Of a stretch of DNA of 31,993 nucleotides, positions 2,033 to 13,514 are shown in pieces. The notes beneath the pieces were generated by a model, which saw only the letters and a list, made by a program, of their open reading frames with translations, was not told where the DNA came from and made no database searches. Position numbers and translations under genes: made by a program. The DNA comes from a virus: the IMG/VR virus record IMGVR_UViG_3300017751_000108, positions 1-31,993 of that record; one strand, 5' to 3'. The stretch's first letter is position 1, and each line of letters opens with the position of its first letter.

Positions 2033-2311
2033 TCAGGCAACCGCCGCAAGGAACGAAGTCGCGTCTCGCTCAACAATTGTAACATCAAACCCGTCTATTG
2101 TTGGGTTGTCAGACAAAAAATCATCAAAGTGGTCAGCGTATTTTTGTAAATCAGAAATCTGAACCAACTTTTCAGTGCTCCCAAAAGCAACCTCCTTACT
2201 GACTTGCGTGCAAAGGTCAGAGTCAAACGCAAAAGAAGCCGAGCCGTCTATGCGCTCAATCCTGCCAAGGTAAGCTTTTTCAAAATCAGACCATTTTAAC
2301 TTGTTAATCAT
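2033..2311 (-). CDS. Hypothetical protein, 92 aa
   Basis: A small acidic protein with no motif I recognise. It begins MINKLKWSDFEKAYLG and ends in a short hydrophobic ATSFLAAVA stretch. The start overlaps the stop of the HTH gene upstream by 8 nt (ATGATTAA), and AGGAG sits 6 nt before the ATG, so translation is probably coupled. It is the third gene of the transcript that starts at the promoter at 2944-2972. Position next to a DNA-binding protein suggests a regulatory partner, but nothing in the sequence proves this. Confidence 0.7.
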   Translation of the reverse strand: MINKLKWSDFEKAYLGRIERIDGSASFAFDSDLCTQVSKEVAFGSTEKLVQISDLQKYADHFDDFLSDNPTIDGFDVTIVERDATSFLAAVA

Positions 2312-2690
2312 TATTAGCTCCTAACATTTTAGTTAATACCGAAATCTCTTCAGCAGATTGTGATAAAATTTTTTGCGTCATCTCATTTAAATCATGACGG
2401 GGGTGGTTATGGATTGCGTTCAATAGACGAGATATTCGCTCTTTTTGAAAATCGGTCAGGGTACCTTGAGACTTTACATCCTCATCATCCTTGCCGCCAG
2501 CAATCCACCTGACCGCACACTGAAGCGTCTTGTCTATCTTCGTATGACCACTCTCGTAGTAAGCATACTGCCGCTCAGATACGCCAAGCTCTTCTGCTAA
2601 CGCCCTCTTGGTCATCTTTATCGCAGTTCTTTGCTCACGAAGGTCACTCGCACCCCAGTCAGAATAAGACTCATCACCCCTATACGGCAT
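2304..2690 (-). CDS. Helix-turn-helix (Cro/CI-like) DNA-binding protein
   Basis: Residues about 17-65 form an HTH of the lambda-repressor/XRE type: LREQRTAIKMTKRALAEELG then VSERQYAYYESGHTKID, with the usual pattern of two helices, a turn, and the YYESG segment. The rest (about 66-128) is charged and helical with no peptidase (LexA) residues, so it is not a self-cleaving repressor. GGAGG is 6 nt from the ATG. The gene overlaps its upstream neighbour by 11 nt and its downstream neighbour by 8 nt. It probably regulates phage transcription. The conserved promoter class at 2944, 5711 and 18088 or the GAACAATTGTTC palindromes are possible targets, but this is inference. No integrase is present, so there is no evidence of lysogeny. 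Confidence 0.85.
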   Translation of the reverse strand: MPYRGDESYSDWGASDLREQRTAIKMTKRALAEELGVSERQYAYYESGHTKIDKTLQCAVRWIAGGKDDEDVKSQGTLTDFQKERISRLLNAIHNHPRHDLNEMTQKILSQSAEEISVLTKMLGANND

Positions 2691-3162: not shown

Positions 3163-4350
3163 TCATAGGCGGGTTTGGGTGACTACGCCGCGCTGGAAGT
3201 AACGCGCTATAGAGTGTGAGACGCCAGCGTATATATCAGCGCTTCCTATTATATCGTTCGGCATTAAACATACACCAGATGAAGCTTGCGACGTCGTGCG
3301 CTCTACCTGTTCCAGCACTTCATATCCGCCTAGGTCATGCTGACCATTGGAAGAGCCGTAGTGATTGTTATACGATTGCTGGGTATGCATCACAATAACG
3401 TCGTCGCCATGAGCGGAGCGCATTTCAGAAAAACGCGCTCTTATGTTTTGAGGCGTCATGCCAGTGATATTTACAAGCTGACGGACAGACGCGCCACCAG
3501 AGATGCGACAAGCGGACCATAGCAGGCCAATATTGCTATTGCGTCTGTATGGCTGTACAGGTGAGGCGACGGTCTCTGTCACTTCCCTAGTCGCGCTTGG
3601 CGCGTAGTCTATGCGGTTTGCGTCGCTATCCTCAATGAGGCCTATCAGCAATGAAACCCAGTTCATCACCTTGCCAGACGATAACGTGGCTGGGTGTTGT
3701 CTGAACTCTATTGTGCCTCTGTCCCATGTCGCCACATTAACGGCGTTATACTTACCGCCAATAACTCTATCTAATTGTGAGACATTTTCTGTCTGCTCAA
3801 AGCTCGCTTCATTAACTCTTGTAAGATTAGAGATAGAACGAAGCATTCCGCGTGTTTGAGCGGCTCTAGATTGCGGCATGAATGCATCTATTACGTTTTG
3901 CTGGTCTGAATAACGTCTTACAACGTCTTTGAGTAATTCAAATTGCATAGGCTCATCACAGAAAAAGCTTGCGTCTGGCATTAAGAAATTTTGCCGTGCC
4001 CTTTCCTTCACATGCGCCATGTAAGAAGCGATAGGCGTCGCGGGCTTTAATCTCTTGATGCCTATGTGAACATGCAAGCCGCAATCGGTGCGATATTTAA
4101 GGCCAAGGTCCTTGCATATCTCCATAATGGTTGATAGGTCGCGTCTGAATTCTGGACAGTCGACCATGGGGGGAAAGACTATTTCAACGTCCACAGCCGC
4201 TGTTCCGTCTGTTTTAACGTCTAGCCAGTCAAAGCCAGCGTCATGTAAGGTACGTCTGCAATGTGCTACAGACTGGCAATTAGATGATGAAAAGTAATAT
4301 TCCAGCTCAATGCCAAAAGTGGGTTTTGTATATTCAAGATTCCAAGTCAT
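3163..4350 (-). CDS. Amidoligase family enzyme with C-terminal helix-turn-helix-like region
   Basis: The start at 4350 (MTWNLEYTKPTFGIELEYYF) gives 395 aa. An upstream Met at 4437 lies before the likely promoter and has no ribosome site. Residues 12-20 (FGIELEYYF), 88-97 (TDCGLHVHIG) and 212-222 (GTIEFRQHPAT) match the pattern of the amidoligase group (Amidoligase_2), relatives of glutamine synthetase and gamma-glutamylcysteine ligase. These enzymes join a carboxyl to an amino group with ATP. The substrate here is unknown. Members are known near gamma-glutamylcyclotransferase genes, and one is present at 7574. Residues about 270-325 (around SVRQLVNITGMTPQNIRARF) look like a winged-helix segment, an unusual addition. 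A single-gene transcript is likely: promoter near 4405-4433 and terminator at 3113-3139. Confidence 0.85.
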   Translation of the reverse strand: MTWNLEYTKPTFGIELEYYFSSSNCQSVAHCRRTLHDAGFDWLDVKTDGTAAVDVEIVFPPMVDCPEFRRDLSTIMEICKDLGLKYRTDCGLHVHIGIKRLKPATPIASYMAHVKERARQNFLMPDASFFCDEPMQFELLKDVVRRYSDQQNVIDAFMPQSRAAQTRGMLRSISNLTRVNEASFEQTENVSQLDRVIGGKYNAVNVATWDRGTIEFRQHPATLSSGKVMNWVSLLIGLIEDSDANRIDYAPSATREVTETVASPVQPYRRNSNIGLLWSACRISGGASVRQLVNITGMTPQNIRARFSEMRSAHGDDVIVMHTQQSYNNHYGSSNGQHDLGGYEVLEQVERTTSQASSGVCLMPNDIIGSADIYAGVSHSIARYFQRGVVTQTRL

Positions 4351-4404
4351 TGTTTTCTTTACCTTTTCTTGTTTCACAAGGACACGAAGCGCCCTCTGAA
4401 TATA

Positions 4405-4433
4405 GATTAACATGAAATAGATTGCAGGAACAA
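4405..4433 (-). promoter_or_regulatory. Probable promoter for the amidoligase gene
   Basis: Minus strand TTGTTC (4433-4428), spacer CTGCAATCTATTTCATG, then TTAATC (or TAATCT with an 18-nt spacer). The spacer is nearly identical (one mismatch in 17) to that at 4993-5009. The leader holds GTGAAACAA, also present in two other leaders. Confidence 0.5.
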
Positions 4434-4687
4434 GCAAAAAACGAACAATTGTGCGGGTTTATTTAATGAGCGAATAAATCGGAATAAATTGCCGGCAATT
4501 ATTTTGCGTGCTGGTGCTGCGCTGCTGCTTCTCATATACCTATACCGTAACTGAGTCTGCTGCATATACAGGGCAAGGTAGCAAAAAGCCCGATTCCCCG
4601 ATGCCCGAGCTGCCCGATTTCCTGGCTGCAAGCTGCCCGACGACCCGGCCTGGCTGCTGCTATTACGAACAATTGTTCGGCTGCCCT
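4434..4687. other. Non-coding G+C-rich word mosaic, island 1
   Basis: About 250 bp with no convincing gene. It is visibly richer in G+C than the genes around it. It is built from repeated short words: CGAACAATTG at 4442 and 4666, CTGC/GCTGC many times, CCCGA three to four times around 4589-4640, and CCTGG/CCAGG. The full palindrome CGAACAATTGTTCG is at 4666-4679. It ends at the terminator of the 72-aa gene. Long plus-strand reading frames here are most likely accidental. Confidence 0.6.
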
Positions 4688-6153: not shown

Positions 6154-6678
6154 TTATTCCGCTTCTTCGCTATCACTAGCTATTTCAACAACATCTTCGG
6201 ACGCTGGCGTTACGTCCTTCATCCTACGCTCTGCCATTCTAGAAAACTCTGCAAGCTTTTCAAGGACTTCCTCACGCCCCATGATGCTAACATCCTCATG
6301 CATGACATGGCTTTTATTAACAAGTAGCCCAGTGGCCTTTAAACGCAGTTCTTCAGCCCGAATAGCTTCTCCGTATTTACCGACCTGCCACGCCTCATCC
6401 CTAATCTTTTTTAAGTCCCTCACAGATTTGTCCACAGTGACCCCGTAGCGCGTTCTAGCCTCTAAACGCATCTCCTCTAGCCGCTCCTGTACGATTGGGT
6501 TCCTGAGAAGCCTCACAGCGGCTACAGTGGCATTTTTATACCCAGCCGCCCTAGCCGCTCCTGTCTGAGTTAAATCACCATTGAAGTATCCATCCAGAAA
6601 CTTCTGCTGTTGCGGCTTCAATCGCTCCATCCCAACAGACGTTTGTTCCTTCGTTAAACTCTCTCCGACTTTAGGCAT
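6154..6678 (-). CDS. Terminase small subunit
   Basis: The start at 6678 (MPKVGESLTKEQ) puts GGAG 8 nt upstream; the ATG at 6684 is only 2 nt from it. The product is 174 aa. Residues about 18-70 match Terminase_2: LKPQQQKFLDGYFNGDLTQT, GAARAAGYKNATVAAVRLLR, then NPIVQERLEEMRLEARTRYG. This N-terminal part is the helix-turn-helix DNA-binding domain that recognises the packaging site. The middle is helical (oligomerisation) and the tail is acidic (SEDVVEIASDSEEAE), as in the family where it contacts the large subunit. No large subunit lies beside it, which is unusual. The repeat-rich patch just upstream (6685-6931) could be its binding site or a replication origin. Confidence 0.85.
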   Translation of the reverse strand: MPKVGESLTKEQTSVGMERLKPQQQKFLDGYFNGDLTQTGAARAAGYKNATVAAVRLLRNPIVQERLEEMRLEARTRYGVTVDKSVRDLKKIRDEAWQVGKYGEAIRAEELRLKATGLLVNKSHVMHEDVSIMGREEVLEKLAEFSRMAERRMKDVTPASEDVVEIASDSEEAE

Positions 6679-6700
6679 TTTCATTACTCCTAATAATTAA

Positions 6701-6731
6701 TATACGGGGGGTTGGTTAGCACCCCCGTATA
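6701..6731. repeat. Perfect inverted repeat upstream of terS
   Basis: TATACGGGGG (6701-6710) and CCCCCGTATA (6722-6731), extended by one more A-T pair, with an 11-nt loop that contains one GGTTAGC. It could form a cruciform. It is not followed by a T run in either direction, so a simple terminator is unlikely. Confidence 0.8.
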
Positions 6732-6916
6732 TATATATATATACAAACCTTGCTAACCTTGCTAACCACAGGCCTTTTCAATGACTTAGCCTAGGTTAGG
6801 TGAGATTTTACTTTAAGACCTAACCTTGCTAACCTACCATGTTAAGTAATTGTTTTACAATAATAAAAAGGTTAGCACCCGATTTGGTTAGCTTGCTAAC
6901 CTCCTAACTGCTAACC
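6714..6916. repeat. GCTAACC iteron-like array, candidate replication origin or packaging site
   Basis: Eight exact copies of GCTAACC or its complement at 6714, 6752, 6761, 6828, 6870, 6886, 6895 and 6910. There are variants at 6794 (GGTTAGG), 6819 (CCTAACC) and 6903 (CCTAACT). Several pairs are spaced 9 bp start to start as TTGCTAACC units, and 6886-6901 is a perfect palindrome around TT. A (TA)8 tract lies at 6728-6743 and the rest is A+T rich. No gene is present from 6685 to 6931. Iterons, an unwinding-prone tract and a cruciform are the classic parts of a replication origin. Adjacent terS makes a packaging site an alternative. Confidence 0.6.
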
Positions 6917-6923
6917 AGAACAA

Positions 6924-6947
6924 AATAAGAACGGCCCCTAAAGGCCG
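6924..6947 (-). terminator. Weak terminator of the 6938-8014 operon
   Basis: Minus strand CGGCC, loop TTTAGG, GGCCG, then TTCTTATTTTG. The stem includes the stop codon at 6938-6940. It separates the operon from the iteron patch. Confidence 0.5.
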
Positions 6948-7344: not shown

Positions 7345-7574
7345 TTCAGCACCCAGTCTTTCCAATGGTTACGATGACCATCCTCGTCTTTTTGGTATGT
7401 AAATCCCAATTCATCAGACAATTTATTAAGAACGGTTTCCAATTTATCCACATCACTTAGATATAAATCGTGCATTTCATCAGCCCGTTGAGTGACTTGT
7501 CTCAAGATATTAAACTGTTCAAGGATACTTAAACGCATTTCCTTAGTCAGCTTTTGGTTTCCATGAATACTCAT
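7341..7574 (-). CDS. Hypothetical coiled-coil-like protein, 77 aa
   Basis: Starts MSIHGNQKLTKEMRLSILEQ directly on the stop of the cyclotransferase gene (TAATG) and overlaps the next start by 4 nt, so it is translationally coupled on both sides. Residues about 12-58 are amphipathic helix with Leu at regular spacing (ILEQFNILRQVTQRADEMHD then VDKLETVLNKLSDEL), suggesting a coiled coil or helical hairpin. I recognise no family. Confidence 0.7.
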   Translation of the reverse strand: MSIHGNQKLTKEMRLSILEQFNILRQVTQRADEMHDLYLSDVDKLETVLNKLSDELGFTYQKDEDGHRNHWKDWVLK

Positions 7575-8014
7575 TACGCAATCTCCAATCCTAATTCATT
7601 ATCAACCTTATTTTGCTCATATCCAGCCCATCCAGCCGCATCATATAACCAGCTAGTGTCTAGCCCGAAATCATTATAGCCCTCTAGGATGGTGTTAAAA
7701 TACGGTGTAGAGGGAGCGTAAATGCCATCGCTGTTCATGGTATATGTCATGATACCAGCAATTTTCTGCTTACCATATAAGCGCGGAAAGCCCTCATAAT
7801 GGTCTAGCGCAACCTCATCAGCGTCTTCGATTTCCCAGATACCAATAGGTAGCACCATATTAGCATCCTTGCTTTTCTGGATGTCAGCAACGCCGCGAAA
7901 CACCAGTTCCCAGCCGTAAAGCATTGCGCTGCCGACCGCTCTTGCAGTAGGGCAACGATACTTCATTTGGCCCTTATTAAGATTCGACCCGTAGGCCATA
8001 TACAATTTACTCAT
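7574..8014 (-). CDS. Gamma-glutamylcyclotransferase-like protein (AIG2/GGCT fold)
   Basis: The start at 8014 (MSKLYMAYGSNLNKGQM) is chosen because the promoter at 8056-8084 would initiate near 8050 and AAGGG lies about 9 nt upstream. The product is 146 aa, normal for the family. YMAYGSNL (5-12) is the substrate-loop signature, and ALDHYEGFPRLY carries the expected catalytic Glu in YEG. Known members release 5-oxoproline from gamma-glutamyl amines or peptides. The substrate here is unknown. Together with the amidoligase at 3163 it suggests making and breaking of isopeptide-type bonds. First gene of a four-gene operon, divergent from the SleB cassette. Confidence 0.88.
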   Translation of the reverse strand: MSKLYMAYGSNLNKGQMKYRCPTARAVGSAMLYGWELVFRGVADIQKSKDANMVLPIGIWEIEDADEVALDHYEGFPRLYGKQKIAGIMTYTMNSDGIYAPSTPYFNTILEGYNDFGLDTSWLYDAAGWAGYEQNKVDNELGLEIA

Positions 8015-8050
8015 AGTGAAGTCCCTTTCATGTTTCATTCACACTTTATG

Positions 8051-11156: not shown

Positions 11157-11338
11157 TTAACTTTCCTTTTTCCTAACCACAAGGCGTGCCTTGTTTGATA
11201 TGTACTTGCCCATCTACCTTTGTTGGATGGGACTACAGACAGCAACTCATCCCGCTTGACTTTAAGATACTCCTTAAATTCATTAGGGGTCATGTCTGCC
11301 GCTGTCTTAGATATTGTCTCTTGCCGTTCTTGCTTCAT
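11153..11338 (-). CDS. Hypothetical basic protein, 61 aa
   Basis: Starts MKQERQETISKTAADMTPNE within the end of the primase-helicase gene (32-nt overlap), with GAGGGG 3-6 nt upstream. It is basic and helical, with DMTPNEFKEYLKVKRDELLS and ALWLGKRKVK at the end. No family is recognised. ATGA overlap with the DUF6378-like gene supports that it is translated. Confidence 0.65.
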   Translation of the reverse strand: MKQERQETISKTAADMTPNEFKEYLKVKRDELLSVVPSNKGRWASTYQTRHALWLGKRKVK

Positions 11339-13514
11339 ATTCCCCTCTACTCATTACGCCGTCTATAGTTCCGAGCCACTTACGCCCGCCAGTTGTTGAG
11401 AACGAGAACTTCTCTATGCGGCGCTCCGCGATAAGTTCCCGAACAATTTGGTCTGCTGTATATTGGCTTATTCCAGCTAAAGAAGCTGGTGCCTCACTAT
11501 CTGTCAATCTTTCTAAAATACTATCTGCACCACCACGCTGGCAAAGAGCCCGACCATTACGCTCACATTCGGAAACCCAGTTTGCCATAGAATCTTTGCG
11601 TATCTGAGCCTGATTACTTTGCCCAAGGCTTAGAACTTGTTCGGTTCTGTCCTCTAGCAACCCAGTAAGCGTGTTACGAATGAAGTGCCGTATGTCACGA
11701 CTAGCAGGGCCGTTAGACTTAACCACGGCGCCGTCAAAGCAACGGTTGCGCTGGTAATCAATGCCTAAGTCATTACAACGACCCTTAGATGTTTTCTCTT
11801 CGACTTGCCACACAGCAAACGCTGAACGAACCCCATCGACCAGAGCAGATGTACCCCGAATCATATTACGCGCTTCTTCAGGCTTGGTTACAACCTTGTC
11901 GTCTTTTATCTTAGTCATATGGTGACAAACAAGAACTGCTGCACCAGTCTCAGTTGCAACCCGAGCCAGAAGGCCCGTAAGAGCCGCACCAGCCGCTGGG
12001 TCAGCATTTACATCTGCGTGTACGAATGATGCTAGTGGGTCAAACACAATGAGCTTCAGGTTGTCCATCTGAATCATTTGCTCGTAGATTTTTTTGAACT
12101 CGTCCGTTTCACTATATTCGCCCATTGATTCTCTGAGAATAGGGAAGACACCTCCCACGTTTGGTAACGGAACAACATGTAATTTGTTCGGGTACGAAAA
12201 CCTAAGTCCTTCCTCGTCCAGTCGTTCAATTCTTCTGTGCATTTCCGATTCATCATCTTCCGCAGTAAATAGAACAACATCACCAAACTCTCCTACAATA
12301 CCACCGAATGAATTTTGCATGGGACTACCAGACGCAACCTTCATAGCCAAGTCCAATGTCATCATGCCCTTGCCTGAATCACCTGCGGCAGCAAAGATGA
12401 TAGGAACCCCCAGAGGGAACGTACCATCAACCAAGAACTGCTGTTCAGGAGCAGAGCCGCTAAACCTAGATATAAGAAGGCTATCATTAAGAAGGTTAAT
12501 ACTACGATGCACAACACCTGCACCATCTTTAATGAATTGCTTCACATTGAAGCCTTCATCAATGGCGTCAGCCGCATCCCACTTGGACGGCTTGTCATGA
12601 GGTGGCTGTAGTATTGTTACTGAGTTCGCATCTGAGCCCATAGCAACTTCACGAACAATTTCTGCTAGGCGCTTGCCAGCATCGTCATTGTCAGGCCATA
12701 CGACTAAATCTTTGCCGCGCAAGGGAGTGAAGTCAAACTTCTCAGCGTTCTTGCGTGTAAGAGAACCAGCCCCGCCAAGCGTACAAGTAGCCGCCATTCC
12801 CTTGTCAACAAGAGCTTGAGCGCACTTCTCGCCCTCTACCCATATAACCTGCTGTTCGGATAAAATGTTCGGGATATTATATAGAGGCCTGATTTCAGGC
12901 GCTTTAGGATATGGCGAGCCGGGAACCCACGGACGGAACTCTTTCTTGCCGTCAATATCGTAGCGGCGCACGGTCACAAGAACCTCGCCGTCTCTGCTGA
13001 TATAATCCCATTGCCCGTTATGTGGCGTGTTCGCATCAATACGAACCCTTTCCACTGAGGGAGTAGCCTTTGGTGTACTGGTGCCCTCTTTTGGTACACC
13101 GTTGCCAGCAGGAACCTTGTTCAGGTTCATTCCGCCTTCAGTACGCCATTCAGGTGCTGGTGGACGTATCGAATTGCTTTCCGATAAATAAGACCCGAAC
13201 AACTCTTTTATGTCCGGCAGCCTCATGCCCCTAGCCTCCATCAATATCTTTACGATGCCGCCGATACCAACGCCACCGTTAAAGTCTTGACCACGCATAA
13301 AGTGAGGACTGTTGTGATTGATGTCAATCTTCATGCTTTCGCCAGCTTCGCCAGCGAGTGAGCCGATAAAGAAGTCATTGCCTCTGATAACGCCATTAGG
13401 GAACGTATCCGATAGAACATTCACCTGAACGGAGCGAGGAACCTCTTTGCTTATTCTTTCTACTAAATCATGGGCATCACCAGATTTAGTGTTGTCAAAT
13501 CGTATAACACTCAT
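11307..13514 (-). CDS. Primase-helicase (TOPRIM plus RepA-like AAA ATPase)
   Basis: 735 aa. Residues about 40-110 resemble the primase N-terminal module (NDFFIGSLAGEAGESMKIDI ... DFNGGVGIGGIVKIL) but have none of the zinc-binding cysteines. TOPRIM: VIWVEGEKCAQALV (E227, E229) and VVWPDNDDAG (D275-D278), the metal-binding acids. The helicase half has a Walker A-like AAAGDSGKGMM (about 375-385, with Gly where Ser/Thr is usual), VVLFTAEDDE, Walker B LIVFDPLASF, and VLVCHHMTK, as in RepA-like AAA_25 hexameric helicases. It should prime and unwind DNA at the phage fork. AGGA lies about 9 nt before the start. Terminator-like hairpin at 13568 just upstream may reduce read-through from the nuclease genes. 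Confidence 0.9.
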   Translation of the reverse strand: MSVIRFDNTKSGDAHDLVERISKEVPRSVQVNVLSDTFPNGVIRGNDFFIGSLAGEAGESMKIDINHNSPHFMRGQDFNGGVGIGGIVKILMEARGMRLPDIKELFGSYLSESNSIRPPAPEWRTEGGMNLNKVPAGNGVPKEGTSTPKATPSVERVRIDANTPHNGQWDYISRDGEVLVTVRRYDIDGKKEFRPWVPGSPYPKAPEIRPLYNIPNILSEQQVIWVEGEKCAQALVDKGMAATCTLGGAGSLTRKNAEKFDFTPLRGKDLVVWPDNDDAGKRLAEIVREVAMGSDANSVTILQPPHDKPSKWDAADAIDEGFNVKQFIKDGAGVVHRSINLLNDSLLISRFSGSAPEQQFLVDGTFPLGVPIIFAAAGDSGKGMMTLDLAMKVASGSPMQNSFGGIVGEFGDVVLFTAEDDESEMHRRIERLDEEGLRFSYPNKLHVVPLPNVGGVFPILRESMGEYSETDEFKKIYEQMIQMDNLKLIVFDPLASFVHADVNADPAAGAALTGLLARVATETGAAVLVCHHMTKIKDDKVVTKPEEARNMIRGTSALVDGVRSAFAVWQVEEKTSKGRCNDLGIDYQRNRCFDGAVVKSNGPASRDIRHFIRNTLTGLLEDRTEQVLSLGQSNQAQIRKDSMANWVSECERNGRALCQRGGADSILERLTDSEAPASLAGISQYTADQIVRELIAERRIEKFSFSTTGGRKWLGTIDGVMSRGEYEARTARDNI

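Follow-up and report, generated by a model that had tools for sequence, protein, structure and literature searches.

A candidate replication origin in an uncultured marine phage, with a repeated word that varies together with the predicted recognition helix of a primase-helicase

Described iteron origins and the locus

In the alpha protein of phage P4, primase, helicase and a C-terminal winged-helix origin-binding domain are combined in one polypeptide, which works with the iterons of ori and crr. In oriV of RSF1010, iterons, AT-rich DNA and hairpin primase sites are found together. The O proteins and ori iterons of lambdoid phages show type specificity. Lambda is arrested in cells with additional copies of its origin (PMC4488673), and plasmids that contain iterons inhibit phages whose replication module is the same (PMC3349717). 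For RepA and the iterons of the PLE satellite, an origin-directed nuclease (ICP1 Odn) has been proposed to select origin/initiator swaps (PMC8263062, eLife 68339).

We analysed 31,993 nucleotides of an IMG/VR virus record (IMGVR_UViG_3300017751_000108, positions 1 to 31,993), hereafter the window. A candidate replication-origin array (6690..6916, no strand assigned) contains about 11 sites of a 7-bp word, eight of them exact, a TA tract, a hairpin and a constant element. The proposed initiator is a primase-helicase of 735 aa (11307..13514, minus strand) with a DnaG-like Toprim primase, an RSF1010-RepA-like hexameric helicase and a C-terminal winged helix. Iteron origins as such are known; what is new is a putative initiator that fuses primase, helicase and word reader and often switches its specificity.

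Like P4 alpha, the enzyme is one polypeptide with a predicted winged-helix reader of short iterons. However, P4 alpha combines an SF3 helicase with a different type of primase, whereas here the helicase is RSF1010-RepA-like and the primase DnaG/Toprim-like. We know of no word switching to such an extent in P4. The RepA-type hexameric helicase and an origin with iterons, an AT-rich region and hairpins are shared with RSF1010 (IncQ), and RSF1010 oriV is the nearest working model for the array. On the other hand, the iteron binder RepC, the helicase and the primase of RSF1010 are separate and its iterons are about 20 bp long, whereas here a separate RepC and long iterons are lacking, the functions are fused, and a 7-bp word recurs with a period of 9 bp. 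The lambdoid O protein is likewise a phage initiator reading origin iterons. However, the iterons of lambda are inside gene O, whereas the array is about 4.4 kb from its putative reader; there are also many more words here, and changes in the reader can be confined to helix residues. As in PLE, origin iterons and the DNA-binding domain of the (here putative) initiator change together, but in PLE entire domains were exchanged at least twice and an iteron measures about 30 bp, whereas here recognition-helix residues have changed many times.

The array and its relatives

Exact copies of GCTAACC/GGTTAGC are found in the array at 6714, 6752, 6761, 6828, 6870, 6886, 6895 and 6910. Copies with one mismatch are at 6794 and 6819, and a degenerate CAAACC is at 6744. 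Four of the copies are TTGCTAACC 9-mers (6750, 6759, 6826, 6893). Outside the array, the remaining 32-kb window contains only seven copies. Shuffles of the whole window contained 3.8 copies on average (maximum 10), and thus about 0.02 copies are expected per 200-bp stretch.

Three tandem 9-bp direct repeats, GGTTAGCAA GGTTAGCAA GGTTTG (6744..6767, minus strand), have the same position and period as in close relatives with a TA tract. They abut the (TA)8 tract (6728..6743), a candidate melting region, and thus show the features of an iteron origin, short direct repeats of fixed period beside an AT-rich tract. In close relatives, the TA tract is kept between the direct repeats and the hairpin. 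The word scan also identified the pair CCTAACC/GCTAACC (6819..6834, plus strand) and a group of four sites in both orientations (6870-, 6886-, 6895+ and 6910+, spanning 6870..6916), which contains a palindromic word pair at 6886-6901.

The hairpin adjoining the (TA)8 tract (6700..6732) has an 11-bp stem with arms 6700-6710 and 6722-6732, complementary at all 11 positions, and the word GGTTAGC in its loop. All 22 distinct natural versions of the hairpin fold into the stem (mean z -5.35, from folding), and paired changes are observed among them: GGGGAC/GTCCCC, GGGCAC/GTGCCC and GGCTAC/GTAGCC. The array also contains the word-independent element CTAAGTCATTGAAAA (6775..6789, minus strand), not mentioned in the original prediction, whose pattern is shared with relatives. 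The pattern precedes terS in 92 of 219 loci, and the array of a Rhizobium phage contains it two times (L435:12984-13064). The element may serve as a second site, bound by a factor that does not vary.

All components reported in the original prediction were recovered: eight exact and three near copies in about 200 bp, 9-bp units, the palindromic pair, the hairpin with GGTTAGC in the loop, and the (TA)8 tract. The stretch was also described as gene-free, in agreement with the absence of ORFs of at least 60 aa within 6685-6937. The Rfam search gave no match above the gathering threshold, and the tRNA search of the window found none.

The small terminase gene terS (6154..6684, minus strand; PF03592, phrog_51) is downstream of the array. 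It is not followed by terL in the window; in a related 54-kb contig, terL (L110:538-2019) is about 7 kb downstream of terS. An amidoligase-like gene (3163-4437) and a gamma-glutamyl cyclotransferase-like gene (7574-8038) flank terS and the array and recur in relatives.

A search with TerS matched 68 IMG/VR loci, a large share of them of marine origin; the IMG/VR scans considered the best 80 loci each, and the contigs are metagenome fragments from mixed populations. No match to TerS was found in 50,697 phage records. The scaffold upstream of terS (9-bp direct repeats, TA tract, hairpin) is common to about 60 uncultured marine relatives. In close relatives the order is scattered word sites, three 9-bp direct repeats, TA tract, hairpin, and the ribosome-binding site of terS.

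GCTAACC is absent upstream of terS in most of these relatives, since the word has been replaced in concert at nearly all sites while the layout is kept. Lack of a conserved repeat in relatives had been named as a sign against a functional site. This sign turned out to be misleading: the exact word is indeed often absent, but the arrangement of sites is conserved. The words found across genomes are GGTTAGC, GGTTTGG, GGTTGCA, ACTTTGG, ACTTGCA, ACTTACA, ACTTACC, ACTTTCA, ACTGTCA, GGTGTCA and GGTATCA. Most arrays contain their own word 5-11 times and any other 0-2 times. Mixed arrays are found in L024, L007, L031 and L074, as expected of switches in progress. In L024 half of the sites are GGTTTGG and half GGTTAGC, and this contig may alternatively be a mixed assembly.

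Covariation of the word with the primase-helicase

When two GGTTAGC genomes were compared with the GGTTGCA genome L090 over all shared genes, a clear cluster of L090-specific residues was observed in the primase-helicase: A680N, I682L, Y685H, T686Q, A687M and Q689R. The primase-helicases of L091 (GGTTAGC) and L090 differ in 6 of 735 residues, all at 680-689. The DNA of these two genomes has 24-28 differences per 100 bp in the array and mostly 0-8 elsewhere over 9.6 kb.

In 19 genomes, residue 685 corresponds without error to the 3' triplet of the word (adjusted mutual information 1.000): Y pairs with AGC, W with TGG, H with GCA, P with ACA, and S with TCA. It is the sole perfect column among 2344 in the shared window genes; the next best reaches 0.80, with 9 genomes. 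Residues 687 (0.785) and 689 (0.564) of the primase-helicase also score high. Mutual-information scans with outer clades added were confounded by clade. Deep clade splits likewise dominated a sliding-window test by distance-based partial correlation, in which the helix window came only about 33rd of 2435.

The same correspondence is seen in the helix types. QY[TIV]ADQ pairs with GGTTAGC, QWT[VI]DQ with GGTTTGG and ACTTTGG, QHQMDR with GGTTGCA and ACTTGCA, QPQ[ML]DR with ACTTACA, ESSIGR with ACTTTCA, QSTIDR with ACTGTCA and GGTGTCA, and QATIDR with GGTATCA. A diverged clade has the helix TQR[TSM][IV]DG with ACTTACC. On a tree of primase residues 1-640 from 29 genomes, built by a quick method without bootstrap, the word changes at least 11 times; GGTTAGC needs four changes, ACTTTGG two and ACTTACA two, with the same helix type each time. 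Two contigs break the rule. L058 has ACTTGCA with a QYVADQ helix, and a chimeric junction near 4.2-4.5 kb is possible. L056 has ACTTGCA with SDNVIGR, the helix being within about 12 residues of the contig end.

In the window's species-level group there are three or more words, and one more helix, SQQQLDR, occurs in a primase-helicase 98% identical to that of the window (L133:4501-6702), with the array off the contig. We predict that L133 carries yet another word, ending in CA.

The covarying positions are in a predicted C-terminal winged-helix DNA-binding domain (residues ~636-720; 11355..11609, minus strand). The AlphaFold model of the full-length protein has low overall confidence (pTM 0.33), whereas the C-terminal domain alone gives pTM 0.75; its fold matches are winged-helix proteins, all weak (best E 0.04). 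The model places the recognition helix at residues 684-696 (11427-11465, minus strand), and the specificity residues 680-689 defined by covariation (11448..11477, minus strand) are at its start. Recognition helices of winged-helix proteins usually contact bases at the helix start, where residues 685-689 sit here. The helicase part matches RSF1010 RepA (1g8y) with a profile E=6.9e-9 and as fold match of rank 8. In Pfam it is assigned to AAA_25 and is not of the SF3 type found in the P4 alpha family; a C-terminal winged-helix domain like that of P4 alpha is present in the predicted structure, a likeness of architecture that does not imply homology.

Of the three binding candidates originally proposed, only the primase-helicase fits, as it covaries with the word; TerS and the HTH protein do not track it. 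TerS proteins 98-99% identical to each other occur with GGTTAGC (window, L017), GGTTGCA (L025) and GGTTTGG (L027), and thus TerS is not the reader. The HTH regulator (2304-2690, minus strand) was also rejected: L121 and L125, with GGTTAGC, have the same SYRMYCYYE helix as L048 and L100, whose word is ACTTTGG.

Another large family of uncultured marine phages (L265-L342 and L355-L433) has the same arrangement of array and terS. Its words are of ACGT type and others, and its hairpin is CCCCCC-TATA-GGGGGG. Helices T[IVL]K are found with ACGT-type words on widely diverged backbones, TINN with ACTTCAA, and DTFEKD with TACCGGA; one lineage with a TACGGTA-type word also has K at the helix position. 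In this more distant family, too, word and helix change together.

The concerted differences between words could in principle be artefacts of assembling or aligning mixed populations, as the contigs are metagenomic, L024 is half-and-half and L058 is perhaps chimeric. However, the words recur in independent samples, on backbones 65-99% identical and with the matching helix at a distance of 3-5 kb, the pattern is seen again in the second family, and a cultured phage has a comparable array (below). We therefore find this explanation hardly credible.

Origin, packaging site or operator

In the cultured Rhizobium phage RHph_Y3_1, whose enzyme is 38% identical, nine copies of GTTCCCA are found directly behind the primase-helicase gene (array at 12935-13125), together with the constant element, TAAG[TG]CATTGAAAA, in two copies and a hairpin; terS is about 2.5 kb away. 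On plasmid pSU2, the primase-helicase homologue is followed by GTTCCC in five copies and by a CCCCTCTATATAGAGGGG hairpin. In Azospirillum, the homologue is followed by GGGGAT repeats and a CTAAGTCGTTGA element, identified by eye. Since the arrays of RHph_Y3_1, pSU2 and Azospirillum are all behind the enzyme gene, the array travels with the primase-helicase rather than with terS. Related enzymes without an array of at least five copies were found in Wolbachia WO fragments and in Maricaulis and Rhodobacteraceae contigs.

These observations bear on the packaging-site reading, considered alongside an origin in the original prediction, in which TerS would bind the array as the site (pac or cos) where packaging starts. 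In both marine families the array immediately precedes terS, and many phages have a packaging site near terS. A pac or cos site would covary with TerS, but here TerS is nearly constant across three words, and in the inner-clade scan no TerS column tracks the word like residue 685. Moreover, the array of RHph_Y3_1 is away from terS, and that of pSU2 accompanies a homologue on a replicon for which the 49 kb of annotation examined list no phage structural or packaging genes. Packaging is thus highly improbable, and the array is very probably an origin.

The hairpin and repeats also abut the ribosome-binding site of terS, and initiators often autoregulate. The array might then be an operator through which the winged helix or a linked regulator controls terS or its neighbours, hence the covariation. 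However, direct repeats with a TA tract and a hairpin are the layout of an origin, and the repeats of RHph_Y3_1, pSU2 and Azospirillum come after the enzyme gene, on its 3' side. We consider a purely regulatory array very unlikely; it may have a dual role, as origin and operator.

The reading of the array as the phage replication origin is strongly supported by the conserved scaffold, the covariation of word and helix, and the position of the array in RHph_Y3_1; its word would be recognized by the C-terminal winged helix of the primase-helicase. From such comparative evidence we assign this explanation a probability of roughly 0.88. We infer the following sequence of events. The winged helix of the phage's own primase-helicase would bind the repeated 7-bp word, and occupancy of several copies would bring the hexameric RepA-type helicase to the (TA)8 tract. 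This tract would then melt, and the fused primase would synthesize primers on the strand so exposed, possibly at the hairpin beside the tract. GC skew has one sign throughout and does not switch at the array, and thus bidirectional replication from it is unsupported.

Why the words switch is a more tentative matter. Phages sharing a word may interfere with each other, or something else may target the origin; a new word with a matching helix would then be an escape. Interference within the same module and an origin-directed attack would each favour a rare word. Co-infecting, resident or origin-targeting elements would block the common word, and a species-level group would keep several origin alleles, here GGTTAGC, GGTTGCA, GGTTTGG and that of the SQQQLDR helix. 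The chances seem even that the origin word, with the helix that reads it, defines a type of compatibility or immunity. Selection would then keep switching two small sites several kilobases from each other in a phage that is otherwise nearly constant.

If the origin reading is true, the marine families provide many natural pairs of initiator and origin specificity, among them two enzymes differing only in the recognition helix, and thus a code of DNA recognition by winged helices could be read from nature. The set also allows a test of how initiator and origin can coevolve without passing through a non-functional intermediate, for which the mixed arrays suggest a route, and raises the question of origin specificity as a phage immunity type. 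The array, now with the packaging-site reading corrected, provides a sequence signature by which origins may be recognized in the genomes of uncultured phages.

Several minor observations concern the relatives. In L097:1-500 (contig of L019), TerS aligns over its first 43 residues only, with 62% identity, which suggests that the array and the gene start may have recombined onto a different terS. The GTTCCC repeats and hairpin of pSU2, a circular plasmid of Agarilytica rhodophyticola (L437:8098-8300), are possibly its replication origin. Related enzymes occur in contigs of alphaproteobacterial metagenome bins, a hint that the host may be alphaproteobacterial. A gene for a C5 cytosine DNA methyltransferase (PF00145; 15324-16061) is shared with some relatives only.
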